DNA of 64,000 nucleotides from Variovorax sp. UMC13. GTDB taxonomy: Bacteria; Pseudomonadota; Gammaproteobacteria; Burkholderiales; Burkholderiaceae_C. The notes below the pieces were generated by a model. The model made no database searches, was not told where the DNA came from, and saw only the letters and a list, made by a program, of their open reading frames with translations. The translations under genes and the position numbers were made by a program. This document shows, in pieces, positions 11,086 to 27,121 of the stretch (its first letter is position 1; every line of letters begins with the position of its first letter). The stretch lies in NCBI RefSeq assembly GCF_014170375.1, contig NZ_LZZW01000003.1, positions 310,001-374,000 on the forward strand, in the 5' to 3' direction.

Positions 11086-11963
11086 GGTGCGAGGGTGGTG
11101 GCCACGGCATGCAGCCCGGCCCAGGTCGCTTCGGCGCCCAGGGTCCGGCTGGCCACGCCGCTGGCATGGAGGGCCAGCGCATAGCGCTGGGTGAGGGCGG
11201 GCGAGCCGATCAGCACGACCTCGCCCGCGGCGCGCAGCGACTGCGTGCGCAGCTCTTCGCCGATCAGCAGGCCCGAGAGGTAGCTCGCCAGGTCGGCCGC
11301 CGACATGCGATCGAACAGCGCCAGCGTGCGCGCGCCGAAGGCGTTGTGCAGCAGGCCTTCGTTGTTGGCCGACTGCGTCACGCCCTGCAGGAAGGCGGCC
11401 TCGTCGAGCGGCGCCGAGGTGTCGAGGGTGCGCGCCAGGATCGAATGGGTGCCGAGCAGCGCGTAGAACTCGCCGGTCATGAAGGTGCGGAAGCCGGCCA
11501 CGCGGCCCTCGGCCACGCGCACCCATTTGTTGTGCGTGCCGGGCAGCACGAAGAGGCCGTCGCGCAGGCCGGTCAGCGCCATGGCGCCGAAGAGTTGCAC
11601 CTCTTCGCCGCGCATCACGTCGGGCACGCCGTCGTGTTCGTCGCTGAGGCCGGGCACCATCGCGACGCGGCCGGACTGGACCTCGATCACCTTGGCCGCG
11701 ATCTCGGCGAGGCCGGCCGGGCAGGCGCAGTAGGGGGCTTCGACCCAGCCCTGCTTGCTGCCGGCCATGCCGGAGATCAGGCAGCGCGTGCCCGCGGGCG
11801 CCATCCAGGCGCCGAACAGTTCGTCGAAGACGGCCCCGAAGCCGCCGGCCGGCACGCTCAGGATGCCGCGTGCGTGGCTCTGTTCTTCGAGCACCTTTCC
11901 ATCGGCATCCAGCAGCGCGCCGCGCAGCGAACTCGTGCCCCAATCAACTGCGACCCAATGCAT
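11082..11963 (-). CDS. dgoK: 2-dehydro-3-deoxygalactonokinase
   Basis: A 293-residue DgoK-family sugar-acid kinase that phosphorylates 2-keto-3-deoxygalactonate with ATP. The N-terminal phosphate loop AVDWGTSSLRGALLDADG, the ISGMAGSKQGW motif, and LPGTHNKWVRVAEGRV followed by FMTGEFYALLG are characteristic. It is the first gene of a leftward three-gene operon and diverges from a Bug-protein gene; the 142 bases between them carry a perfect palindrome that may bind the FadR-type regulator encoded at 14042. Full length for the family. Confidence 0.9.
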   Translation of the reverse strand: MHWVAVDWGTSSLRGALLDADGKVLEEQSHARGILSVPAGGFGAVFDELFGAWMAPAGTRCLISGMAGSKQGWVEAPYCACPAGLAEIAAKVIEVQSGRVAMVPGLSDEHDGVPDVMRGEEVQLFGAMALTGLRDGLFVLPGTHNKWVRVAEGRVAGFRTFMTGEFYALLGTHSILARTLDTSAPLDEAAFLQGVTQSANNEGLLHNAFGARTLALFDRMSAADLASYLSGLLIGEELRTQSLRAAGEVVLIGSPALTQRYALALHASGVASRTLGAEATWAGLHAVATTLAP

Positions 11964-12038
11964 CGTGGCGTGTCTCCAGCTTCATCGTCATGGCGTCCGC
12001 ATCCCAGGGTTTCTCCTGCGGAAACGGCATTTTCAATC

Positions 12039-12048
12039 ATCATATGAT
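12039..12048. promoter_or_regulatory. Palindromic operator candidate ATCATATGAT
   Basis: A perfect 10-base palindrome in the divergent gap between dgoK and the Bug gene, 58 bases before the Bug ATG. It contains TATGAT, a good -10 box in either direction. FadR-subfamily GntR regulators often bind short AT-rich palindromes with this core. A FadR-type gene ends the rightward operon, so self-regulation is a reasonable inference. Confidence 0.45.
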
Positions 12049-12105
12049 AAGCCGGCGAGCCCGGGCAGAGCCGGGTGTTCGTGCCCCAATACTGGAGACA
12101 GAGCC

Positions 12106-13080
12106 ATGCAAGACACCCTCTCGGCGCAGCGCCGCCACCTTCTCCAGGGCCTCGGCGCGATGCTGCTGCCCCTGCCTTTCGCCGCCTTCGCCGACGACTA
12201 CCCCAGCAAGCCGGTCGAGCTGGTGGTGCCGGCCTCCGCGGGCGGCGGCACCGACGCACTGGCGCGCGGTTTCGCCGAGATCGCGAGGAAGCATTTCCCG
12301 CAGCCCTTCATCGTCAACAACAAGCCCGGCGCCAGCGGCGTGGTGGGCATGGGCGAGGTGCTCAACAGCAAGCCCGACGGCTACAAGGTGTCGGTGGTGA
12401 TCGCCGAGCTGGTGATCCTGCCGCACCTGAACCTGTCGAAGTTCACCTATGCCGACTTCCGGCCCATCGCACGGCTCAACGCCGACCCGTCGGCCATCAC
12501 GGTCAAGGCCGATGCGCCCTGGAACACCATCGAGGAGTTCCTCGCGGCGTCCAAGGCCAAGCCCGGCGAGATGCGGGTCGGCAACTCGGGCAACGGCTCG
12601 ATCTGGCACCTCGCGGCCGCGGGCCTGGAGGACAAGGCCGGCGTCAAGTTCAACCATGTGCCCTACCAGGGCGCGGCGCCCGGCGTGGTGGCGCTGCTCG
12701 GCGGCCACATCGATGCGGTGGCCGTGAGCCCGGGCGAGGTGGCGGTGCACGTGCAGGCCGGCAAGCTCAAGATCCTGGCCGTGATGGCCGACCAGCGCCT
12801 GAAGGCCTTCGACAAGGTGCCGACCCTGAAGGAACGCAAGATCGACCTGTCGATCGGCACCTGGCGCGGCCTGGCCGTGCCCAAGGCCACGCCGACGGCG
12901 GTGGTCGACGTGCTGCGTGCCGCGGCGCGCAAGACCGCCGAGGAACCGGCCATGCGCGAGGCGCTCGAGAAGCTCAACCTGGGCTTCTCCTACCTCGACG
13001 CGGCCGAGTTCGGCCAATCGATGGAGCGCGACCACCTGTACTTCAAGGAGCTGGTGCAGAAGGTGGGGATCCGCGCATGA
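12106..13080 (+). CDS. Tripartite tricarboxylate transporter substrate-binding protein (Bug family)
   Basis: A 324-residue periplasmic TctC/Bug protein. The signal peptide includes QRRHLLQGLGAMLLPLPFAA with a twin-arginine start and cleavage around AFA-DD. Mature landmarks are VELVVPASAGGGTDALARG, FIVNNKPGASGVVGMGEV and the VPYQGAAPGVVALLGGHID segment that shapes the carboxylate-binding pocket in this family. Ligands are usually carboxylates, amino acids or sugar acids. No TctA or TctB membrane subunits are nearby, so it must share a transporter or act as a sensor. The next gene starts at an ATGA overlap. Sugar-acid binding fits the neighbouring dgo genes but is inferred. Confidence 0.88.
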   Translation: MQDTLSAQRRHLLQGLGAMLLPLPFAAFADDYPSKPVELVVPASAGGGTDALARGFAEIARKHFPQPFIVNNKPGASGVVGMGEVLNSKPDGYKVSVVIAELVILPHLNLSKFTYADFRPIARLNADPSAITVKADAPWNTIEEFLAASKAKPGEMRVGNSGNGSIWHLAAAGLEDKAGVKFNHVPYQGAAPGVVALLGGHIDAVAVSPGEVAVHVQAGKLKILAVMADQRLKAFDKVPTLKERKIDLSIGTWRGLAVPKATPTAVVDVLRAAARKTAEEPAMREALEKLNLGFSYLDAAEFGQSMERDHLYFKELVQKVGIRA

Positions 13081-14813: not shown

Positions 14814-16601
14814 TCAGCGGCCGAAGGAACGGCCACCGCCGCCGCCGGAGCGACCACCACCGCCACCGCCGTAACCACCGCCGCCGCCGGAACGGCCACC
14901 ACCGCCGCCGCCGCCCGAGCGGTTGCCGCCGTAGCCGCCACCACCACCGCCGCCGCCGCGACGGCCGCGGCCGCCACCCATGCTGTCGACGCTGGTGCGC
15001 AGCGGATCGGGCTGGCCGTCGCCGCCGCCGACCGATTCGGCGCGCAGGTGCGCGACCTGGTTGGCCTGCGTCGGGCTGTGGCTGTTGCCGTGATGGCGCG
15101 GTTGGCGCTCGTCATGCGGCAGGCCTTGCGGTGCATGGTGCGGCGCGCGCGCCGGACCCTGCGGGCCGCGACCCGGACCGCCTTGCGGACGCGGTGCCTG
15201 GCCCCGTGCGGGACCCTGGCCGCCGCCGCCGCCGCCGCTGCGCGCACCCTGGGGTGCCGCGCCGCCGCCGCGGCGTTGACCGCCACCGCCGCCGCCGTTG
15301 CCGCCGCCTTGGCCGGCCTTGTTGTCGCGCACGCGTTGCAGCATCTCGGTGCGTGCGGCCTTGGCGGCCGCCTGCATCACTTCACGGCTCGGCGGACGAC
15401 CGGCACCGCCCCAGATCGTCTGGCGACCCATGGCGATCGGTTCGGCGCGTTCGCCTTCTTCAGGGCCGAAGCCGTCGACGACCTTCACCGGGATCTGCTG
15501 CTTGGTGAAGCGCTCGATCTCCTGCATGAAGCCTTCCTCGTCCAGGCAGACCAGGCTCACGGCCTCGCCGCTGTTGCCCGCGCGGCCGGTGCGGCCGATG
15601 CGGTGCACGTAGTCTTCGCTGACGTTGGGGATCTCGTAGTTCACGACGTGCGGCAGCTCGTCGATGTCGATGCCGCGGGCCGCGATGTCGGTCGCCACCA
15701 GCGCGCGGATGGCACCGGTCTTGAAGCCGGCCAGGGCCTGGGTGCGTGCGCTCTGGCTCTTGTTGCCGTGCAGCGCCATCGCCTCGATGCCGTTCTTGGT
15801 CAGGAATTCGGCCACGTTGTTGGCGCCGAACTTGGTGCGGGTGAACACCAGCACCTGGCTCCAGTTGTGCTCGTTGATGATGTGGGCGAGCAGGGCCTTC
15901 TTCTTGCCGCGGCCCACCGGGTGGATCACCTGGGTGATGCGCTGCACGGTGGTGTTGCGCGGCGTGACCTGCACGCTCTGCGGGTTCTTGAGCAGCTGGG
16001 CGGCCAGGTCGCGGATCTCGTCGCTGAAGGTGGCCGAGAACAGCAGGCTCTGCTTGTCCTTGGGCACCAGCGCGAGGATCTTCTTCACGTCGTGGATGAA
16101 GCCCATGTCGAGCATGCGGTCGGCTTCGTCGAGGATCAGGATCTGCACCTGCGACAGGTCGAGCATGCCCTGCTGCTGCAGGTCGAGCAGGCGGCCGGGC
16201 GTGGCCACGAGGATGTCGACGCCCTTCTTGAGCTTGCTGATCTGCGGGTTCATGCCGACGCCGCCGAAGATCACGGTCGAGTCGAGCTGCAGGTACTTGC
16301 CGTAGGTGCGCACCGACTCTTCGACCTGGGCCGCGAGTTCACGCGTGGGGGTCAGCACCAGGGCACGGATGCCGGTGCCGCCGAACTTGTTGGTGGCGCT
16401 GCGGCTCATGGTGAGCTTGTGCAGCATGGGCAGCGTGAAGGCCGCGGTCTTGCCGGTGCCGGTCTGGGCGCCGCCGAGCAGGTCGTGCCCCTCGAGCACC
16501 ACGGGGATCGCCTGGGCCTGGATGGGCGTGGGCGTGTCGTAGCCGTGTTCGAGCACGGCCTTCAGGATGGCCGGGGCCAACTTCAGATCTTCAAAAGTCA
16601 T
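14814..16601 (-). CDS. rhlE: DEAD-box ATP-dependent RNA helicase, RhlE type
   Basis: A 595-residue RNA helicase that unwinds short duplexes in ribosome assembly and RNA decay. The ordered motifs are all present: Q motif near [10 protein letters not shown], Walker [24 protein letters not shown] in [17 protein letters not shown] in [25 protein letters not shown], and [12 protein letters not shown]. The C-terminal tail (from about residue 390) is low-complexity, with long Gly/Arg/Ser runs ending [10 protein letters not shown], a probable RNA-binding tail as in RhlE and cold-shock helicases. The ATG at 16601 fits the family start [13 protein letters not shown]. RhlE is preferred over CsdA or SrmB because no extra RNA-binding domain follows the core. 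Confidence 0.88.
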
Positions 16602-17014
16602 TTGGAAGCAATAGCGCCTTGCATGGCGCAGTGGCATCGGCCCACCGCGGTGCCCTTTGTTGGGGCGACCCGGTCAGTCAAGGCTGATGTGTCAAGGGTG
16701 GGAGCCGAGAGCCAGTCGCATGGGTGTGCGCAAAGCCTTCTTGTCCCCGGCAGAAGAGCCGCTGTTGCGGGCAACTGGACCCGGCAACGAAGGCCCATTG
16801 TCGCATGAGTAGGCGCTGTGCCTCCAAATGTCGTGCGCAAGGCCTTGCGGCGCGCGGGCGGGCGCCGCTAAAACCTCGGGCCCCGTGCCGGAACGGGGCG
16901 GCGCCGACGGGGCCACCCACGTCATTGGGGATAATAGAAGGTTCGCCGCCCCTCGCTGACCGCCCGCAGCGCTTGGCGCGGCCCTTGTTCCAACTGTTCC
17001 AACCTGCAAGAGAT
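16602..17014. other. Divergent intergenic region, rhlE / ettA
   Basis: About 410 bases without a convincing gene; the frames that cross it lack family resemblance. Toward ettA there is a GATAAT -10-like box at 16930-16935 without a good -35 box. Toward rhlE the leader holds a small GCGCC...GGCGC hairpin at about 16615-16630 and two TTGAC boxes around 16674-16696. Long leaders are common ahead of helicase genes, but no known riboswitch is recognisable. Confidence 0.4.
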
Positions 17015-18676
<1,662 letters not shown>

Positions 18677-18698
18677 GCCTTTCGAATGCATACCAAAA

Positions 18699-18722
18699 AG
18701 CCAGCGCCTCGCTGGCTTTTTT
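18699..18722 (+). terminator. Rho-independent terminator after ettA
   Basis: AGCCAGCG, loop CCT, CGCTGGCT followed by TTTTT, and preceded by an A-run. An 8-base perfect stem starting 22 bases after the ettA stop. Confidence 0.88.
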
Positions 18723-18803
18723 CATTGAAAAGGCCTTTGTCTGACAGGGCAAATAACACTTACTCACATAGACTCGCCGAACTTTACATAACGAGGGGGA
18801 CGG

Positions 18804-19967
18804 ATGGTTCGGCATTCCAGATGGGTGGCTTTTCTCTTTCTGTTTTGGGGAGGCCTCGTCGGCCAGGCACTCGCGCTGAGCGTCTCGCTCGCCGGCTTCG
18901 CCTACTCGGGTGATGCGGCCAGCATCACGGCCCGTTTCCCGCATTCGCAGCGCCTCGACAAATCGCTGGGCGCGGGCGGCATCAACGGCCTGATCCGGCA
19001 GGTGGTAGCGGCCCAGCCGCCCACCGCCTTCGAGCTCGACACGGCCAACCTGATGGAGCTCAAGGGCCGCGACCAGGCCATCGCGGTCGCGCTGATGCTC
19101 AACGGCGAGACGGTGTCGACCGAGCGCTTCGGCGGTTTGTCGAAGGTCTTCATCCAGCTGCGCGCGCAGGCCATGTTCTTCGACTTCAAGACCATGACCG
19201 TGCTGCGCGCCTACCCGTTCAGCGTGGCCTATGTCGACCTGCTCGACCATGCGCCCACCGAGGACGAGATCGCCGAGCGCGTGCGCACGCTCTACCTCGG
19301 CGCGGGCACCACGCCCGGCATCCTGAACCGCTTCTCCGAAGCGCTCGCGCGCGCCAGCCTGCCGGCCCAGGTGCCGCGTTTCCTGCAGGTCTCGCAGGCC
19401 AGCGTCAGCGATGAAGTGCGCAAGCTGCTGCCGGCCGAACTCGCGAGCCAGCCCGGCGTGGCCGAGACCTGGGTCGCCGACATGCTGGCCGAAGCCATCT
19501 CCAGCCGCACCGGCGTGCCGATCCTGCCCTATGCCAAGGGCTATGCGATCGGCAAGGTGATGTCGATGCGCGTGGCCGACGGCTCGGTCTACGAGCTCAA
19601 GCTGCCCGAGCCCGACTACGCGATCGCGGTCGACCTCACGCGCTTCGGCCGCTTCGAGCACGCCAAGGTCGCGGCCGGCACCAGCTACATCTACGCCTCG
19701 AAGGTCGCGGTCAAGGTGCAGCAGCCGCTGGCCAACCGCGTCTACATGAACTCGGAATTCAAGAACGGCGAGGTCAAGACCGTGCCTTCTTCGCAGCGCA
19801 GCGTGGACGACTTCCCCGCCTACAGCGACAGCCTGCGCGGCCTGTTCACCAAGCTCTCCGGCGTGCTCGCCGGGGGCAATGATCCGTGGCTCAAGGATGC
19901 GGCCGCCGCCCCGGACATCGACAAGCAAATCACCGCCACCAAAGAGGTCATCCAGTCATGCAAATAG
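18804..19967 (+). CDS. Exported protein of unknown function, first gene of a four-gene exported cluster
   Basis: A 387-residue protein I do not recognise. It has a signal peptide (hydrophobic VAFLFLFWGGLVG at residues 8-20, likely cut after ALA at 24), so it acts in the periplasm or outer membrane. There are no other membrane helices. The central part carries a PEPDYAIAVDLTRFGR strand preceded by MLAEAISSRTGVPILPYAKG, a pattern loosely reminiscent of TolB/CsgG-like lobes; this is an eye impression only. A GAGGGGGAC ribosome site precedes the ATG. Its stop overlaps the next gene by ten bases, and three further exported proteins follow in the same direction up to a terminator at 23342. Confidence 0.8.
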   Translation: MVRHSRWVAFLFLFWGGLVGQALALSVSLAGFAYSGDAASITARFPHSQRLDKSLGAGGINGLIRQVVAAQPPTAFELDTANLMELKGRDQAIAVALMLNGETVSTERFGGLSKVFIQLRAQAMFFDFKTMTVLRAYPFSVAYVDLLDHAPTEDEIAERVRTLYLGAGTTPGILNRFSEALARASLPAQVPRFLQVSQASVSDEVRKLLPAELASQPGVAETWVADMLAEAISSRTGVPILPYAKGYAIGKVMSMRVADGSVYELKLPEPDYAIAVDLTRFGRFEHAKVAAGTSYIYASKVAVKVQQPLANRVYMNSEFKNGEVKTVPSSQRSVDDFPAYSDSLRGLFTKLSGVLAGGNDPWLKDAAAAPDIDKQITATKEVIQSCK

Positions 19968-21154
19968 CCTTGCCACTCGCCGCGCCGATCGCGCGCCATC
20001 CGATGCGCAGCGTCGTCCTGATGCTGCTCGCCTTCGGCCTGTTCTTCATGGGCCTGGCCGCGCACGCGCAGGTCGCGACCGCCCGCGGCAAGGCCTCGGT
20101 GACCTACGAGGGCTCGGTGTTCGGCAGCAAGGCCAGCCCCGAGGTCAAGGAGCGCGCGATGCGCGAGGCGCAGGTCAAGGCGGTCGAGTTCTACTACGCC
20201 GAAGCCGGCGAGTCCGAGTCGGCCAACTTCGACGCGATCCGCGACCGCGTGGGCGCCAACCTCGACAAGTTCATCCTCGACGCGACCGTCCTCGACGAGC
20301 AGGACCAGACCGACAAGCGCGTCTACACCGTCACGGTGCGCACCTCGATCAACGTGGCCAAGCTGCGCAACGCGGTCAAGGCCGGATCGGCCACCACGGC
20401 CACGGCCAAGGGCGACCGCTCCAAGCTGACCTTCCTGTTCGTGTCGCGCCAGGTCGATTCCGAGAAAACCTTCGACGACCGCGTCTACCAGCGCGTGGAC
20501 CGCGGCGTGAAGGTCGATGCGCAGGGTTCCGACAAGCGCCGCGGCGCCGAGGGCGAATCGATCCGTGGCGGCCAGATCGGCACCAACGCATCGCGCAGCC
20601 GCGAGACCGCGTTCGAAGCCAAGCGCACCGACACCATCGAGACCGGCGGCAGCACCACGCGCCGCGCGAGCGAATCGACCTGGCGCATCTTCCCGAGCGC
20701 CAACCTGAATTCGGTGTTCACCGGCATCTTCGCCTCAGCCGGTTTCAAGGTGCTCGAGGCCGGCTTCGTCGAGCCCTACACCAACGGCCTCATGAAGATC
20801 AAGAACGTCGAGAACGACTACAAGACCGGCAACGACCTCGACCCCGCGACGCTGCGCGATGTGGTGCGCGGCCTGCAGGCGGCCCAGGTACCGTACCTGG
20901 CCTTCGGCACGCTCGACGTGGGCCTGACCGACACCGATCCGTCCAGCGGCCTGCAGCGCGTGGCCGTGACCGTGACCGGCAAGATTCTCGACCTCACCAG
21001 CGGCATCCCCGAGAACATCTCGACCGTCGGCCCGGTGCAGTACGCCGGCGTCGGCCCGACCGAAGCCGAAGCCCGCGGCAACGCGCTCAAGAAGGCCGCC
21101 GACAGCGCGGCGCGCGAACTCGTGAGCCAGGTCACCAACCTCGGCCTGCGCTGA
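19958..21154 (+). CDS. Exported protein with an LPP20/FlgT-N-like domain
   Basis: A 398-residue exported protein with signal peptide VVLMLLAFGLFFMGLAAHA, probable cut after A37. Residues about 40-135 (ASVTYEGSVFG through KRVYTVTVRTSINVAKL) follow the LPP20/FlgT N-terminal pattern: a strand, then a helix of AREAQ-type repeats (KERAMREAQVKAVEFYYAEA), then strands. A charged low-complexity linker with many Arg and Ser residues spans about 160-240. The C-terminal third (SVFTGIFASAGFKVLEAG, then VPYLAFGTLDVGLTD) resembles a TolB/FlgT middle lobe. The start overlaps the upstream gene by ten bases, indicating coupling. Function unknown; an outer-membrane-associated assembly role is inferred from the cluster. 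Confidence 0.78.
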   Translation: MQIALPLAAPIARHPMRSVVLMLLAFGLFFMGLAAHAQVATARGKASVTYEGSVFGSKASPEVKERAMREAQVKAVEFYYAEAGESESANFDAIRDRVGANLDKFILDATVLDEQDQTDKRVYTVTVRTSINVAKLRNAVKAGSATTATAKGDRSKLTFLFVSRQVDSEKTFDDRVYQRVDRGVKVDAQGSDKRRGAEGESIRGGQIGTNASRSRETAFEAKRTDTIETGGSTTRRASESTWRIFPSANLNSVFTGIFASAGFKVLEAGFVEPYTNGLMKIKNVENDYKTGNDLDPATLRDVVRGLQAAQVPYLAFGTLDVGLTDTDPSSGLQRVAVTVTGKILDLTSGIPENISTVGPVQYAGVGPTEAEARGNALKKAADSAARELVSQVTNLGLR

Positions 21155-21209
21155 CCAGCGCACACCTTTCTTCTTTTCCTTTTTCTTTCACTCCAAAGAA
21201 CACCACAAC

Positions 21210-21854
21210 ATGTCCAAGAAACTGACCGCCATCGCACTCGCCGCCGCCTTCATCGCCCCTTGCGCCTTCGCGCAGTTCTCGATGCCCTCGATCGGCAGCA
21301 TCACCGGTGGCGCCGCTTCGGGCGGCGGCGACCAGGGCGCCGAGCAGGACTCGCTGGTGCGCGCCTACGTGTCGGCCAACAAGGAGGTGCTGGTCGCGCA
21401 GTCGAAGATGGCCGAGGCCGTGGGCCTCAAGGAATCGGCGGCCAAGCTGAAGTCCACCGCCGATGCGCTGGGTGACGGCGCGACCAAGGGCAACCTGTCG
21501 GACGCCGACAAGATCCAGAGCGATTCGTCCAAGGAGATCAGCGCCCGCCTCAACGACAGCAACCTGAAGATGGATGCGCAGTCGCAGGCGCTGTACCAGT
21601 CGGGCATGGCCTCGCTGGGCCTGGGCGTGGTCAAGTACGTCGGCCTGCGCCCGCATGTGCTGGCCTTCAGCAACACGCTCAAGGCTTCGCCGATGCTGGC
21701 CATGACCAAGCTCAACGCCGGCGCCTACGTGGTGACCAACTTCCCGAGCAACGCGAAGAACGTCTACGACACGCTGAGCTACTCGACGGCCTACGCCAAG
21801 AGCCACGACATCCCCGTGCCGACCGACGCGACCAAGGCGCTGGGCGCGTTCTGA
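21210..21854 (+). CDS. Small exported Ala/Ser-rich protein of unknown function
   Basis: A 214-residue protein with a clean signal peptide (KKLTAIALAAAFIAPCAFA, cut after A21) and no lipobox. The mature part begins with a Gly/Ser-rich stretch (SIGSITGGAASGGGDQG), then mainly helical Ala/Lys/Asp segments, suggesting a helical periplasmic subunit or chaperone. I do not recognise a family. It starts 55 bases after the preceding gene, and the CsgG-like lipoprotein gene starts four bases after its stop, so it is transcribed within the four-gene cluster. Confidence 0.75.
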   Translation: MSKKLTAIALAAAFIAPCAFAQFSMPSIGSITGGAASGGGDQGAEQDSLVRAYVSANKEVLVAQSKMAEAVGLKESAAKLKSTADALGDGATKGNLSDADKIQSDSSKEISARLNDSNLKMDAQSQALYQSGMASLGLGVVKYVGLRPHVLAFSNTLKASPMLAMTKLNAGAYVVTNFPSNAKNVYDTLSYSTAYAKSHDIPVPTDATKALGAF

Positions 21855-21858
21855 GGCC

Positions 21859-23310
21859 ATGGGCACCGTCCGACTGACGCTGGCGCTGTCGCTGGCCTTC
21901 TCGGTCTCGGCCTGCGACCAGGCCCAGACCATGATCGACAAGTACACCGGCAAGAACAAGCCAGTGCCTGCGGTGGTCGCGACGCCGGTCGCGCCGGTGG
22001 CGCCCCCGCCATCGGCTTCGCCCGTGGCCGCGCTGCCCGACGCCGGCAAGGTCGGCACCGTGACGGTCAACGCGCAGGGCACGGGTGCCAGCGCGGCCGA
22101 GGCGGTCGACGAAGCGATGCGCCTGGCGCTCAAGATGGTCAACGGCACGACCATGGACCTGGGCAGCGAGCAGATCAAGGTCACGCTGACGCTGGCGCGC
22201 GGCCGCAACGCCGAGGCCCTGCGCGGCACGGCCTTCGCCGAGCAGGTGGTGCAGAGCGCGGGTGGCGCGATCACCGGCTTCAAGGTCAACGCGCTCGACG
22301 GCCCCGACAGCCGCGGCTTCTACCAGGCCGACATCGAGGCCTCGGTCGCCAAGTACACGCCGCCCGCGGCCGACAGCAAGAAGCTCAAGATCGTGATCGC
22401 GCCGCTGCGCTACGACACCGCGTCCTTCCCCATGGGCGGGCGCAGCGTGCCGGCCGAGAAGGTGGCCGAGGACCTGCGCCAGCAGATCCTCACCGCGCTG
22501 ACCAACACCGGGCGCTTCACCGTGCTCGACCGCGACATGGGCGGCGAGGTCGCGCAGGAGCTCGACATGATCAGTTCGGGCCAGGCACCGCGCGCCGAGT
22601 TCGGCAAGCTGGGCCAGGCCATGAGCGCCGACGTGATCTGGGTCGGCAAGATCACTTCCTTCGCCTACAACCGCCACGCGCGCCAGCTGCAGACCAGCGA
22701 CCGCGAACTGGTGAGCTACTCGGGCGGCTGGGGTGTCTCGCAGAAGCTGGTCAACGTGTCGACGCGGCAGGTCATGCTGTCGGAGTCGCTGCGCGGCGAA
22801 GCGCCCAAGGTCGCGGCCACCACGCTGGGCTCGGGCATCGACGGCGCGCAGGTCAGCGAAGGCATGCAGAACGAGATCGCCAACCGCATCGTCTCGGGCA
22901 TCGTCTCGCGCACCTACCCGGTGACCGTGATCTCGCGCGACGGCAACGCCGTGGTGCTGAGCCAGGGCGGCCAGGCGGTGCGCGAAGGCGGGCGCTACCA
23001 GCTGGCCTACATGGGCAAGGAGATGTTCGACCCGCAGACCAACCAGTCGCTGGGCCGGGTCGAATCCGACTGCTGCGAGGTGGTGATCGAACGCGTGACG
23101 CCGACCATGGCCCAGGGCCGGCTCGAACGCGTGCAGATGCCGCTCGACGGCCTGCAGCCCGGCGCGCTGCAACTGCGCGGGATGGTGACGGCGCGTGTGG
23201 CGGCGGCCGACACCGCCGCGGCACCTGCGACCAAGCCGAAGCCCGCACGCCCGGCCGCCACGCGCAGCGATGCACCGGCGGCGGCGCCGGCGCGCGACGA
23301 CAAGTGGTGA
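21859..23310 (+). CDS. CsgG/FlgT-like outer-membrane lipoprotein
   Basis: A 483-residue lipoprotein; the lipobox VSAC places the lipidated cysteine at residue 19, with Asp at +2. A Pro/Ala-rich tether (34-60) leads to three modules. Residues 65-168 resemble the FlgT N-terminal/LPP20 fold (EAVDEAMRLALKMVNGTTMD, then GFYQADIEASV). Residues 175-350 match the CsgG/FlgT middle lobe (KIVIAPLRYDT, LTNTGRFTVLDRDMGGEVAQE, ADVIWVGKI). Residues 353-425 look like the FlgT SH3-like end (TVISRDGNAVVLSQGG, then NQSLGRVESD). A Pro/Ala tail follows. CsgG makes curli-secretion pores and FlgT belongs to the flagellar H-ring, but no csg or flagellar genes are nearby. The role is therefore unassigned; the layout comparison is by eye. 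Confidence 0.82.
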   Translation: MGTVRLTLALSLAFSVSACDQAQTMIDKYTGKNKPVPAVVATPVAPVAPPPSASPVAALPDAGKVGTVTVNAQGTGASAAEAVDEAMRLALKMVNGTTMDLGSEQIKVTLTLARGRNAEALRGTAFAEQVVQSAGGAITGFKVNALDGPDSRGFYQADIEASVAKYTPPAADSKKLKIVIAPLRYDTASFPMGGRSVPAEKVAEDLRQQILTALTNTGRFTVLDRDMGGEVAQELDMISSGQAPRAEFGKLGQAMSADVIWVGKITSFAYNRHARQLQTSDRELVSYSGGWGVSQKLVNVSTRQVMLSESLRGEAPKVAATTLGSGIDGAQVSEGMQNEIANRIVSGIVSRTYPVTVISRDGNAVVLSQGGQAVREGGRYQLAYMGKEMFDPQTNQSLGRVESDCCEVVIERVTPTMAQGRLERVQMPLDGLQPGALQLRGMVTARVAAADTAAAPATKPKPARPAATRSDAPAAAPARDDKW

Positions 23311-23341
23311 GAGCGCCCCGGTGCTGACACCACCGCCTCGG

Positions 23342-23367
23342 AAAACCGCCTTCGGGCGGTTTTTTTT
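23342..23367 (+). terminator. Rho-independent terminator after the exported cluster
   Basis: AAAACCGCC, loop TTCG, GGCGGTTTT, then a continuous T-run to 23367. It starts 31 bases after the CsgG-like gene stop and closes the four-gene unit. Confidence 0.92.
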
Positions 23368-23504
23368 CGCCTGAAGCGCCCGCGGTCGCCGGCGCTGTCA
23401 TGGCGGCGGCGGGCGTGCGGATTCCCGGACAGGGCGCTTGCCGCGTGGCCGGTTTTTCATCCGCCGCGGCGCGGGAAAACCACGATGCTGCGGAAGAACA
23501 TCCT

Positions 23505-23514
23505 TTGAATTCAA
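23505..23514. repeat. Perfect palindrome TTGAATTCAA
   Basis: A 10-base perfect palindrome ending 23 bases upstream of the sigma54 -24 element. It could be part of an activator or IHF-region site, but the spacing is close for a sigma54 enhancer, so its role is uncertain. Confidence 0.3.
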
Positions 23515-23537
23515 TCACTTGCATCGCGTGCGCGGCG

Positions 23538-23553
23538 TGGCACGTCGGTTGCT
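23538..23553 (+). promoter_or_regulatory. Sigma54 (RpoN) -24/-12 promoter
   Basis: TGGCACGTCGGTTGCT matches the sigma54 consensus TGGCACG-N4-TTGC[A/T] at every defined position, with the GG (23539-23540) and GC (23551-23552) doublets exactly ten bases apart. Transcription would begin near 23563 and read into the DUF6351 and Bug genes. A sigma54-dependent NtrC-type activator is encoded at 29259. Confidence 0.75.
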
Positions 23554-23589
23554 ATTGAACTGGCACAACACCCGAGGATGGAGACACCG

Positions 23590-23685
23590 ATGAGCCCGCA
23601 GCACTGCACGACCCGCGCACCCCCGGCACCGCCTTCACGGGCGAGGCCGGCGCCTGGCGCGCCTTTCTTCCCGCCCCCGCACTGA
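23590..23685 (+). CDS. Putative 31-residue proline-rich leader peptide
   Basis: A short open frame in the leader of the DUF6351 transcript, about 26 bases after the predicted sigma54 start. It has a GGAG ribosome site at 23580-23583, six bases before the ATG. Eleven of 31 residues are proline. The end reads APFFPPPH then stop, so a PPP motif lies two codons before termination, where ribosomes are known to pause without EF-P. A regulatory leader is inference. High GC makes proline-rich frames common, so this may be chance. Confidence 0.3.
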   Translation: MSPQHCTTRAPPAPPSRARPAPGAPFFPPPH

Positions 23686-23780
23686 CGCCGCACGCCCGGC
23701 GCGACGACCCGGTTCGACCGTGTCGCGCCGCCGCATGGGCAAAGCCTTTTCCCTTCACAAAAAAGACGGAGACCTTGAGC

Positions 23781-26054
23781 ATGAGATTCGAAAAGAACAC
23801 CCCCCGCTTCGGCCGGAACTCGGCGCGCGTCAGCGCCTTGCTGGCCGCGCTGATCCTGTCGGCCTGCGGCGGCAGCAGCAACGACGGCGGCGGTACCAAC
23901 CCGCCGACCGGCGGCAACCCGGTCACGCCCGTGCCGGACCCCGGCAGTCCCAACCCCGGCACGCCGGCGGATGCGACGGTCAAGGTCAGCGTGCTGTCGT
24001 CATCGCCCAAGCTCGTGACCGGCGACGATGCACTGGTCGAGCTCCAGCTGCTGGGCGACAAGCCGATGAGCACGCTGTCGGTGACGGTCGACGGCCGCGA
24101 CGTGACGGCGGCCTTCGCCCGCAACCCCGCCGACGGCCGCCTGCTGGGCAAGGTCACGGGGCTCAAGCTCGGCGAGAACCAGCTGGTCACACGCTACGGC
24201 GACTACAGCACCACGCTGGCGCTCACGGCCTATCCGGTCACCGGCCCGGTGATCTCGGGTCCGCATGAGGAACCCTTCGTGTGCGGCTACGCCACCTTCA
24301 CCCGCATGGGCGGCCAGCCGCTCAAGTCGCTGGACGACGGCAAGTGCTCGGTCGAGACGCGGGTCGACTACTACTACCGCAACAGCAGCGGCGGCAACAC
24401 GCGCTTCGAGCCCGCGTCGATCACGGCCTATCCGGCCAACATGACCTACCTCACGGTCAACGGCAAGAGCGTGCCCTACGTGGTGCGGCTCGAGAGCGGC
24501 ACCATCAACCGCGGCCTCTACCAGTCGGCCATCCTGCACGACGTGCTCAACGAGCCCGCGCCGTCGCCGACCACGCCGCCTGCCGGCTGGAACGGCCAGC
24601 TGCTCTATCCGCTGGGCGGCGGCTGCCAGGGCGGCTGGTTCCAGCAGGGCAACGACTTCGGCACGCTGATCAACCCGGTCTACCAGAGCCGCGGCTTCGC
24701 CGTGACCACCTCGACGCTCAACGTCTTCGGCACCAACTGCAACGACCAGCTCTCCTCGGAGACCATCGCGATGGTGAAGGAGCGCTTCATCGAGAACTTC
24801 GGCGTGCCCAAGTACACCATCGGCGTGGGCGGTTCGGGCGGCTCCTACCAGAGCCACCAGACCAGCGACAACTATCCCGGTCTGTTCGACGGCGTGGTGG
24901 TGAGCCAGGTGTTCGCCGACGTGACCTCGTCGACCATCTTCAAGCTGCACGACTCGCGCGTGCTCAACAACTACTTCAACGACCCGGCGACCTCGGCGCT
25001 GGCCTACACCGTGGCGGAAAAGCAGGCCATCTCGGGCTACCTGCAGATCGGCAACATCGCCAACATGAGCGGCAGCGCGGGCCGGCTCGACCCGACCGTG
25101 TCCTTCCCGGCCGGCGTGCCCGTGGAGCAGCGCTACAACCCGTTGACCAACCCGACGGGTGCGCGTGCCACGGTCTTCGATCACACGGCCAACGTCTACG
25201 GCAAGACCGAGGCCGAAGGCTTCGCGCTGCGGCCGATCGACAACGTCGGCATCCAGTACGGCCTGAATGCGCTCAACGAAGGCAAGCTTTCGATCGACAA
25301 GTTCCTGGACCTCAACGAGCGCGTGGGCGGCGTCGACCGGGACATGAAGCGCACCGCCACCCGCACCGTGGGCGACGTCGAGGCGCTCAACCGTGCCTAT
25401 CAGTCGGGACGGATCGTGAACGGCGGCGGCGGCCTCGCATCGACCGCGATCATCGACCTGCGCGACTACAACGACGGCACGGTGGGCGGCGACATCCACA
25501 CCAAGATCCATTCCTTCTCGATGCGCGAGCGCCTGCGCCGTGCCAACGGCCACATCGACAACCATGTGATGTGGACCAAGGGGGGCAGCGAAGCCGAAGC
25601 CTTCGACCAGATGAACACCTGGTTGTCGGCGGTGCGTGCCGACAGCTCCGGCCGCAGCAAGGCGCAGAAGGTGGCGGCCAACCGGCCGGCCGAGCTCAAG
25701 GACGCCTGCTGGAGCAACGGCCTGAAGTACGTGGAGGAGCAGACCGCCTTCGGCACCGGCGCCTGCAACACCTTCTACCCCGCGGGCACGACGCCGCGCA
25801 TGGCGGCCGGCGGCCCGCTGACCGACGACATCGCGAAGTGCCAGCTCAAGCCGCTGAACCCCTCGGACTACCGCGTGATCTTCAGCCCGGTGCAGTGGGG
25901 CCGCATGCAGGCCGCGTTCCCCGGCGGTGTCTGCGACTGGACGAAGGCGGGCGTGGGCCAGCAGGCCTTGACGGGCACCTGGCTGTCCTTCGGGCCCTCG
26001 CCGGTCAACCTGCTGTTCGACATCACGAAGCGGCTGCTCGCCAGCTTCATGTGA
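23781..26054 (+). CDS. DUF6351 family lipoprotein, probable alpha/beta-hydrolase-like enzyme
   Basis: A 757-residue exported protein. The signal peptide ends in lipobox LSAC (Cys29), followed by a Gly/Asn/Pro-rich tether, so it is probably lipid-anchored. The body matches DUF6351: NGQLLYPLGGGCQGGW, then a nucleophile-elbow-like GVGGSGGSYQSHQ with Ser at about residue 352, reminiscent of tannase/feruloyl-esterase-like serine hydrolases. Paired cysteines (FVCGYATF, GTNCNDQL, DACWSNG, GACNTF, GVCDW) suggest disulfides. The ATG at 23781 has ideal spacing from GGAG; a TTG at 23775 is too close. It is followed by a Bug protein gene, suggesting that a released carboxylate is captured; the substrate is unknown. 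Confidence 0.82.
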   Translation: MRFEKNTPRFGRNSARVSALLAALILSACGGSSNDGGGTNPPTGGNPVTPVPDPGSPNPGTPADATVKVSVLSSSPKLVTGDDALVELQLLGDKPMSTLSVTVDGRDVTAAFARNPADGRLLGKVTGLKLGENQLVTRYGDYSTTLALTAYPVTGPVISGPHEEPFVCGYATFTRMGGQPLKSLDDGKCSVETRVDYYYRNSSGGNTRFEPASITAYPANMTYLTVNGKSVPYVVRLESGTINRGLYQSAILHDVLNEPAPSPTTPPAGWNGQLLYPLGGGCQGGWFQQGNDFGTLINPVYQSRGFAVTTSTLNVFGTNCNDQLSSETIAMVKERFIENFGVPKYTIGVGGSGGSYQSHQTSDNYPGLFDGVVVSQVFADVTSSTIFKLHDSRVLNNYFNDPATSALAYTVAEKQAISGYLQIGNIANMSGSAGRLDPTVSFPAGVPVEQRYNPLTNPTGARATVFDHTANVYGKTEAEGFALRPIDNVGIQYGLNALNEGKLSIDKFLDLNERVGGVDRDMKRTATRTVGDVEALNRAYQSGRIVNGGGGLASTAIIDLRDYNDGTVGGDIHTKIHSFSMRERLRRANGHIDNHVMWTKGGSEAEAFDQMNTWLSAVRADSSGRSKAQKVAANRPAELKDACWSNGLKYVEEQTAFGTGACNTFYPAGTTPRMAAGGPLTDDIAKCQLKPLNPSDYRVIFSPVQWGRMQAAFPGGVCDWTKAGVGQQALTGTWLSFGPSPVNLLFDITKRLLASFM

Positions 26055-26125: not shown

Positions 26126-27121
26126 TTGAAATCATCGACGACGACGAAGAAATCCCTGGCCGTCCTGGCGGCCGCTGTCCTGTCCATGGGCGCCTCGGCC
26201 CAGAGCTTTCCCGACGGCAAGGTCATCACGATCGTGGTGCCCTTCGCAGCCGGCGGCCCGACCGACCGCGTGGCACGCGACCTGGCCGAGGCCATGCGCA
26301 AGCCGCTGGACGGCGTGAGCATCGTGATCGACAACGCAGCCGGCGCCGGCAGTACCATCGGCAACGCCAAGGTCGCGCGCGCCAAGGCCGACGGCTACAC
26401 GCTGCTGCTCACCCACGTGGGCATGGCCACCACCCCGGTGCTGTATCGCAAGCTGCCCTACAACTACGAGACCGACTTCGAGTACCTGGGCCTGATCAAC
26501 GACGTGCCCATGACCGTGATCGGCAAGCCGCAGCTGGAAGCCAACAACTTCAAGGAACTGCGCGAGTGGATCGGCAAGAACCCGGGCAAGGTGAACCTGG
26601 GCAACGCGGGCATCGGCTCGGCCTCGCACCTGTGCGGCCTGTTGTTCCAGAGCGAGCTCAAGGCGGAAATGACCACCGTGCCGTACAAGGGCACGGCGCC
26701 GGCCATCGCCGACCTGCTGGGCGGCCAGATCGACCTGCTGTGCGACCAGACCACCAACACCACGAGCCAGATCGAGGCGAAGAAGGTCAAGCCGTACGCG
26801 GTGACCACGCTCAAGCGGCTGACGACGCCGGCCCTGAAGGACATCCCGACGCTGGACGAGTCGGGCATGAAGAACTTCCAGGTCACGATCTGGCACGGGC
26901 TGTACGCGCCCAAAGGCACGCCGCCGGCGGTGCTGAAGAAGCTCAACGACGCGGTCAAGGTGGCACTGAAGGACCCGGACTTCATCAAGAAGGAAGAGGG
27001 CCTGGGCGCGGTGGTGGTGACGGACAAGCGCGTGGAGCCGGCGGAGCACAAGAAGTTCGTGCAGGCGGAAGTCGCGCGCTTCGGGCCGGTGATCAAGGCC
27101 GCGGGCGTGTACGCGGACTGA
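26126..27121 (+). CDS. Tripartite tricarboxylate transporter substrate-binding protein (Bug family)
   Basis: A 331-residue TctC/Bug periplasmic protein. It starts at a TTG codon (26126), supported by a CTGGAG ribosome site and a normal signal peptide (KKSLAVLAAAVLSMGASA, cut after residue 25). Landmarks: ITIVVPFAAGGPTDRVAR, IDNAAGAGSTIGNAKVA, TVPYKGTAPAIADLLGGQID. Two unusual cysteines (HLCGLLF, DLLCDQTT) could form a disulfide. No TctAB genes are nearby. The next genes are a DctB-like kinase and an NtrC-type regulator. In Bordetella the Bug protein BctC signals to the kinase BctE, so a sensing role here is a reasonable inference. Confidence 0.88.
   Translation: MKSSTTTKKSLAVLAAAVLSMGASAQSFPDGKVITIVVPFAAGGPTDRVARDLAEAMRKPLDGVSIVIDNAAGAGSTIGNAKVARAKADGYTLLLTHVGMATTPVLYRKLPYNYETDFEYLGLINDVPMTVIGKPQLEANNFKELREWIGKNPGKVNLGNAGIGSASHLCGLLFQSELKAEMTTVPYKGTAPAIADLLGGQIDLLCDQTTNTTSQIEAKKVKPYAVTTLKRLTTPALKDIPTLDESGMKNFQVTIWHGLYAPKGTPPAVLKKLNDAVKVALKDPDFIKKEEGLGAVVVTDKRVEPAEHKKFVQAEVARFGPVIKAAGVYAD

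Follow-up and report, generated by a model that had tools for sequence, protein, structure and literature searches.

FlgT is a component of the H ring of the Na+-driven polar flagella of Vibrio (PMC6375700). PelC forms a periplasmic ring of twelve lipoproteins in the PelBC complex (PMC12141448), and TraT is a decameric exclusion lipoprotein of the outer membrane that has a transmembrane helical barrel (PMC11733297). Here we analysed a 64,000-nucleotide stretch of the genome of Variovorax sp. UMC13 (the window), in which positions 18804-23310 hold a cassette of four genes for exported proteins, P0001 to P0004. The earlier note on this DNA had pointed to a FlgT/CsgG-like lipoprotein in the cassette, standing apart from flagella and curli. 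Our leading interpretation, held at roughly even confidence, is that the cassette is an operon whose products build an FlgT-like envelope assembly of its own, an H-ring-like periplasmic scaffold that stands alone. No description of the cassette or of its sister clusters was found in literature searches whose coverage was sparse for subscription journals and nil for preprints. The features of the locus are as follows.

18804-19967, + strand: P0001, exported protein with predicted tandem CsgG/PelC/LptE-like (ABD-fold) domains at about 24-190 and 190-386 (AlphaFold2, VIA-align, Foldseek)
19958-21154, + strand: P0002, exported protein with predicted FlgT N-like (about 39-149) and FlgT-middle/TolB-N/PelC/CsgG-like (about 156-398) domains (AlphaFold2, Foldseek, VIA-align, hhalign)
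21210-21854, + strand: P0003, exported protein, read as helical by eye, with homologues at 31 loci
21859-23310, + strand: P0004, putative lipoprotein with FlgT-like N, CsgG/FlgT-middle (170-345) and SH3-like C parts, an Ala/Pro-rich linker and a C-terminal Trp (Pfam, hhalign)
18695-18722, + strand: upstream intrinsic terminator (ettA), a hairpin of 12 base pairs with a T run (-17.1 kcal/mol, z -5.3)
23340-23366, + strand: downstream intrinsic terminator, a hairpin of 11 base pairs with a T run at its end (-15.5 kcal/mol, z -2.6)

FlgT-like and CsgG-like domains of the cassette products

Profile comparison shows P0004 to be a remote homologue of FlgT that carries a putative lipobox. We aligned 26 of the 39 members of the P0004 gene family (alignment A4), leaving out the near duplicates L003 and L063, the broken copy L074 and 10 distant relatives (L numbers denote loci). 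For comparison, a FlgT set was assembled through Pfam FlgT_C, found in 53 of 249 genomes; from the first 17 of 30 loci, 14 of 17 open reading frames (ORFs) were kept and three with wrong or unlike frames were left out. In hhalign the two families matched at 97.5% (E 8.9e-12); the 299 aligned columns begin within the N part and extend to the C end. Seven distant P0004 relatives (A6, of which row L051 is also in A4) gave 97.7% (E 2.1e-12, 359 columns) against FlgT and E 4e-59 against the P0004 profile. Since hhalign E-values are misleading when a profile is compared with just one sequence, we base the FlgT claim on the 14-row profile, on the length of the match and on its structured domains. None of Pfam FlgT_N, FlgT_M or FlgT_C exceeded its gathering score in P0004, and among the 26 homologues FlgT_C and FlgT_M appeared once each (E 0.072 and 0.077). 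The CsgG domain (PF03783) was found in P0004 at E 1.5e-13, with 50.9 bits against a cut-off of 20.8 (positions 4-182 of 210), and in all 26 aligned homologues at E<=1. The FlgT-like and CsgG modules that had been read by eye in the lipoprotein are thus borne out by profile methods. Searches of Protein Data Bank (PDB) sequences with the four profiles and with P0004 itself returned weak matches only, which we attribute to chance, although the match of TsaP to the C part of P0004 (E 0.06) may be real.

The lipobox of P0004 reads SVSAC, with Cys19 as the candidate lipidated residue (by inspection), and this Cys is nearly invariant in A4. P0004 has a single match in its own genome; a second CsgG match lies elsewhere in that genome, where the gene finder showed no gene covering it. 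A second P0004 subfamily (L049, L059, L060 and L062 in A4, and L085) has a long Ser/Ala-rich N-terminal insert of alternating look.

P0002 has no Pfam or NCBIfam match, yet its predicted fold matches the first two domains of FlgT. The AlphaFold2 model (mean predicted local distance difference test score, pLDDT, 74.6; predicted template-modelling score 0.48; insert 174-236 of low confidence) had FlgT (PDB entry 3w1e) as its top Foldseek match, with E 6.2e-6 and prob 1.00. VIA-align Z values for this model were 11.4 for TolB, 10.5 for PelC, 10.3 for CsgG and 10.1 for FlgT; absence from the fold-match list excludes no FlgT-like family. By hhalign, P0002 matched the N part of FlgT at 63% (E 6.8e-5), which supports the FlgT N-like half of the LPP20/FlgT-N-like domain proposed earlier. 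No Pfam FlgT domain was found in P0002 itself, FlgT_N appeared at E 0.0087 in one of 23 P0002 homologues, and the profile comparison with E. coli CsgG gave no match.

P0001 was likewise unmatched in Pfam and NCBIfam. The earlier note had called it unrecognised, which is right for its sequence; its predicted fold, however, is recognisable as that of a tandem CsgG-superfamily protein. Its AlphaFold2 model (mean pLDDT 87.2) holds one fold in two copies, with VIA-align Z values of 9.7 for Cj1090c, 8.6 for PelC, 8.4 for CsgG, 8.2 for the LPHT ring and 7.5 for FlgT, further matches to PqiC and LptE, and a Foldseek match to FlgT 3w1e (E 5.9e-5). Its penultimate residue, Cys386, is invariant in all 26 rows of alignment A1. 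Structural matches to FlgT and CsgG folds were therefore found for both P0001 and P0002. In profile comparisons P0002 and P0004 shared a 20-column match only (6%) and P0001 and P0002 none (0.1%), so that the kinship proposed for these proteins is based on fold and not on sequence. P0003 had no Pfam or NCBIfam match, and its homologues and profile gave weak, scattered matches only. Its family, like that of P0001 (0.2%), stayed far below the P0004 family against the 14-row FlgT profile (1.3%).

Several observations weigh against an H-ring-like assembly. The P0001 family has no sequence match to the 14-row FlgT profile (0.2%), and the Z values of P0001 matches (6.9-9.7) lie in the range where VIA-align warns of common arrangements. 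The best Foldseek rows of P0001 and P0002 have low template-modelling scores over the query (0.19-0.28). P0002 superposes on FlgT with a root-mean-square deviation (rmsd) of 13.8 over 220 residues, so its domain arrangement is either different or badly predicted. LpoB, TolB and LptE, which are not known as rings, share the fold matched by P0001 and P0002, and the fold alone therefore does not show a ring. Finally, the lipobox of P0004 has Asp at +2, which by the E. coli rule would argue for the inner membrane; in most homologues this position is taken by Gly, Asn or Ser.

The same domains could instead serve a CsgG-type secretion channel for some substrate. The CsgG domain of P0004 and the presence of CsgG among the fold matches of P0001 and P0002 point this way. 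So does an insert of 63 residues in P0002 that shows weak beta alternation, its mean z being 1.0 where control segments gave 0.03 and -0.10. When P0004 is aligned with CsgG of E. coli (62.9%, a single-sequence comparison of the misleading kind), however, a 10-residue gap falls right after ARYFGIG, in what we presume to be the first membrane-hairpin region, and the alignment stops before the second. No CsgF match was found in the genome at E<=1, CsgA, CsgB and CsgE not being searched for; in the CsgF control, 7 of 14 control genomes matched, one of them above the cut-off. The P0002 insert is polar and its alternation reaches p<0.05 in only 5 of 23 rows; a transmembrane hairpin at this place, considered as a candidate, is not claimed, the alternation being weak. 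No recurrent neighbour fit as a substrate among the gene families compared. A channel is improbable in our estimate, and because of the gap at the presumed first hairpin and an alignment that stops short of the second we regard a secretion pore as the least likely of the ring, pore and scaffold readings.

A probable self-contained, patchily distributed operon

ORF analysis and hairpin folding confirmed the outline of the locus: four + strand ORFs encode products of 387, 398, 214 and 483 residues, each opening with a hydrophobic export signal (by inspection), with gaps of -10, 55 and 4 bases, between the two terminators listed above. That they form one transcript is favoured by the overlap and short gaps, as proposed earlier; the 55-base gap between P0002 and P0003, however, contains a smaller hairpin followed by a pyrimidine-rich stretch (-11.1 kcal/mol, z -3.9), which speaks against it. 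In 16500-26000, a simple consensus scan gave 8 terminator-like sites, where 6.5 were expected, and detected no promoter of the sigma-70 type.

All four genes occur in order, with near-constant stop-to-stop spacing, at 31 distinct loci, 30 of them in Burkholderiales, among 44 stretches examined. L002 and L063 are the same place, separated by a start-codon artefact, and the count takes L002. A grouping so tightly spaced at 31 loci is more than chance, and gene order is conserved well beyond one strain, as a synteny survey was meant to establish. At L088, P0001-P0002-P0003 stand in order with a P0004-like gene upstream, and 11 stretches (L050, L052-L055, L075-L078, L086, L089) gave distant or partial matches only. 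Genes at the other loci were called by a simple home-made finder, and their start positions may be wrong. The copy at L074, included among the 31, has P0003 and P0004 each split in two pieces. Two further regions, L160 and L161, contain the cassette, P0002 not being shown by the gene finder in L160. In Cupriavidus metallidurans CH34 the cassette lies on the 2.58-Mb replicon.

Flanking gene families, compared by family, vary by locus; apart from L002, where one gene intervenes, only this window, L001 and L003 have the cassette after an ettA-like gene. At E<=0.001, P0004 matches were found in at least 15 of 100 congeneric genomes (85 without a match), in at least 12 of 299 genomes of the family sample (one weak) and in at least 15 of 300 of the order sample (6 at 1e-50 or better); these samples overlap and include the window's own genome, and the counts are lower bounds because few candidates were scored per genome. 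The P0001 profile found only its own genome among 274 of the class sample. The P0002 profile matched 5 of 299 genomes of the phylum sample, among them L085, which lies outside the order and has the complete set of four, and L086, a weak partial match. The genes of the cassette thus stay together without fixed partners, and the cassette is probably a self-contained, patchily distributed operon.

The FlgT homology of P0004 also invites the explanation that the cassette supplies an accessory ring to the cell's own flagella. The flagellar gene flgI was detected in 21 of 27 carriers tested (the fragmentary loci of carriers G595, G624 and G434 being left out), and in the window's genome it is present on another contig. 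Against a flagellar ring, flgI was not detected in six of the 27 (G640, G639, G652, G522, G258, G066), or in 5 of 25 near-complete carriers. Because of these six, the cassette is not strictly tied to flagella, and the earlier view of a FlgT-like set standing apart from them holds. Equally, none of the 12 named neighbours is flagellar or curli-related, in keeping with what had been noted for the adjoining genes, and most congeneric genomes sampled lack a match. In the window's genome, FlgT_M had no match above its cut-off (best E 0.65) and FlgT_C none at E<=0.01. We consider a flagellar accessory role very unlikely.

The gene 5' of the cassette is ettA (NCBIfam NF008775, 977 bits), and the 12 named neighbours comprise ettA, a RhlE-like helicase and ten more. 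Two TctC-type receptor genes (11755-13077 and 26126-27118) and a tannase-like DUF6351 gene (23775-26051) flank the region as ordinary neighbours. The G+C content of the cassette is 68.3%, and both this and third-position G+C resemble those of the neighbours. PADLOC anti-phage models gave no family for any of the four products at E<=1. A motif scan of 32 upstream regions returned as best seeds just the ettA coding sequence of this locus. Upstream of P0001 homologues of one subclade (L064-L069, L072-L074) we observed a palindrome-like motif (about TTTTGGCAACGATCGCCAAAA / TTTGGAAACAATTGTCAAA), which was not seen in this window.

An acidic-aromatic C-terminus and clusters with LpoB

P0004 ends in DDKW (codons 23296-23307), behind a non-conserved Ala/Pro linker. 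The last residue is Trp in all 26 aligned homologues, and Asp occupies position -4 in 24 of them and position -3 in 22. A terminal Trp is found in 31 of the 32 P0004 matches at E<=1e-120, a number that includes both L002 and L063; the exception is the broken L074. More generally, the C-terminal pattern [DE].?[FWY] was found on 36 of 152 cluster genes, compared with 4 of the 468 remaining genes at the same loci that encode 100 residues or more, and with none of the 139 among these that have a crude signal-like start. The Fisher value of 4e-11 overstates the case, since the pattern was picked after the tails had been seen and homologues do not count as independent genes. With P0004 relatives excluded, the pattern was present on 12 of 43 genes in 12 divergent clusters: on all seven DUF6844-type genes, on all three members, of checked kinship, of one exported family (L054, L055, L088) and on two others. 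A DUF6844 protein and a member of this exported family shared a 58-residue match (E 0.002), and the two may be distantly related. Tagged proteins occur in this window (P0004) and at L050, L052, L054, L055, L088, L089 and L156-L159. Several proteins run counter to reading these ends as a tag: P0001, P0002 and P0003 of this window end without it, the FlgT-like proteins of L156-L159, L162 and L089 are untagged, and L162 lacks tagged proteins altogether. The invariant C-terminal Trp of P0004 and the similar acidic-aromatic C-termini in sister clusters are new here.

Seven further regions (L156-L162) were fetched for the sister clusters. In L156-L159 a FlgT-like protein has as neighbours a DUF6844 protein and one that is TPR-like (which we take to be COG3014), and three of these four clusters also hold LpoB. 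L162 combines LpoB with the TPR-like protein but has no DUF6844 match. In L158 and L162 LpoB exceeded the curated NCBIfam cut-off (E 1.2e-41 and 2.4e-70); it was identified by Pfam in L089 (3e-39) and by BLAST in L157 and L159. The Azospirillum cluster L089 has YcfL, LpoB and DUF6844 as annotated, and L050 has DUF6844 and DUF1425. Overall, the proteobacterial clusters L156-L159, L162, L050, L052 and L089 hold varying sets of TPR-like, YcfL/DUF1425, LpoB, DUF6844 and FlgT-like proteins. A giant Ig-like protein is encoded near the Azospirillum FlgT-like/LpoB cluster (L089, 10999-17026).

This company raises the main rival to the scaffold, a peptidoglycan-synthase activator set in which the CsgG-like lipoprotein would act like LpoB through the wall, the other products being regulators. 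The proximity of LpoB to a FlgT-like P0004 relative in five clusters (L158, L162, L089, L157, L159), with the TPR-like and mostly the DUF6844 protein, is consistent with it, as are the adjacency of ycfL and lpoB in E. coli and LpoB Pfam matches at E<=1 in 14 of 26 P0004 homologues. No cassette product, however, had an LpoB, DUF1425 or DUF6844 match in Pfam or NCBIfam, and P0004 fell below both LpoB cut-offs (PF13036, 16.4 against 22.3 bits; TIGR02722, 18.4 against 110.55). An hhalign match of the P0004 family to E. coli LpoB (69.8%, E 4e-5), also against a single sequence, was rejected, as it covers the signal peptide and the Pro-rich linker and not the domain. We judge an activator set unlikely, although it deserves more credit than a channel.

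A proposed periplasmic scaffold compared with known systems

Between a scaffold or collar and a pore that spans the membrane, we prefer the former; the ring, its membrane side and the purpose of the cassette are what we infer here. The modules would pack side by side into a periplasmic ring or collar, as in FlgT and the H ring, PelC, TraT and CsgG. The lipid of P0004 would anchor it to a membrane, the flexible Ala/Pro arm with its terminal DDKW could dock on a resident envelope partner, and P0003 may be a helical accessory. A broader and more tentative idea, which we think possible but doubtful, is that FlgT is one branch of a wider group of stand-alone proteobacterial periplasmic machines, including the LpoB/YcfL/DUF6844 clusters and this cassette, that share a C-terminal docking tag (DDKW, DDF, DEF, GEW), placed on different subunits and recognised by one envelope receptor. 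The occurrence of a lipobox-bearing FlgT homologue in a patchy four-gene unit, also among carriers in which flgI was not detected, suggests a more general envelope module common to the cassette and the flagellar H ring. LpoB near FlgT-like proteins in some sister clusters offers a new angle on the origin of LpoB, and the conserved C-terminal tag gives a simple, testable handle on a putative partner.

Among known systems, FlgT (3w1e; LPHT ring 8z5n) resembles the cassette through the profile homology of P0004 and the N and middle fold predicted for P0002. FlgT is a soluble periplasmic protein and is not known to be lipidated. P0004 differs from it by the predicted lipobox, the long linker and the C-terminal Trp, scores below the Pfam FlgT cut-offs and has no flagellar gene among the named neighbours of its cassette. 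The LpoB/YcfL clusters are alike in that several sister clusters have LpoB near a FlgT-like relative of P0004, whereas the cassette products themselves match none of LpoB, DUF1425 and DUF6844. CsgG is represented by the above-cut-off Pfam domain of P0004 and by the fold matches of P0001 and P0002; P0004, however, has added FlgT-like N and C parts, and the genome lacks a CsgF match. TraT has the superfamily fold (Z 6.9 to P0001 and 8.1 to P0002) and is an oligomeric lipoprotein. PelC is close in fold to the predicted domains of P0001 and P0002 (Z 8.6 and 10.5), from which the cassette differs in consisting of multi-domain proteins encoded as a four-gene unit.

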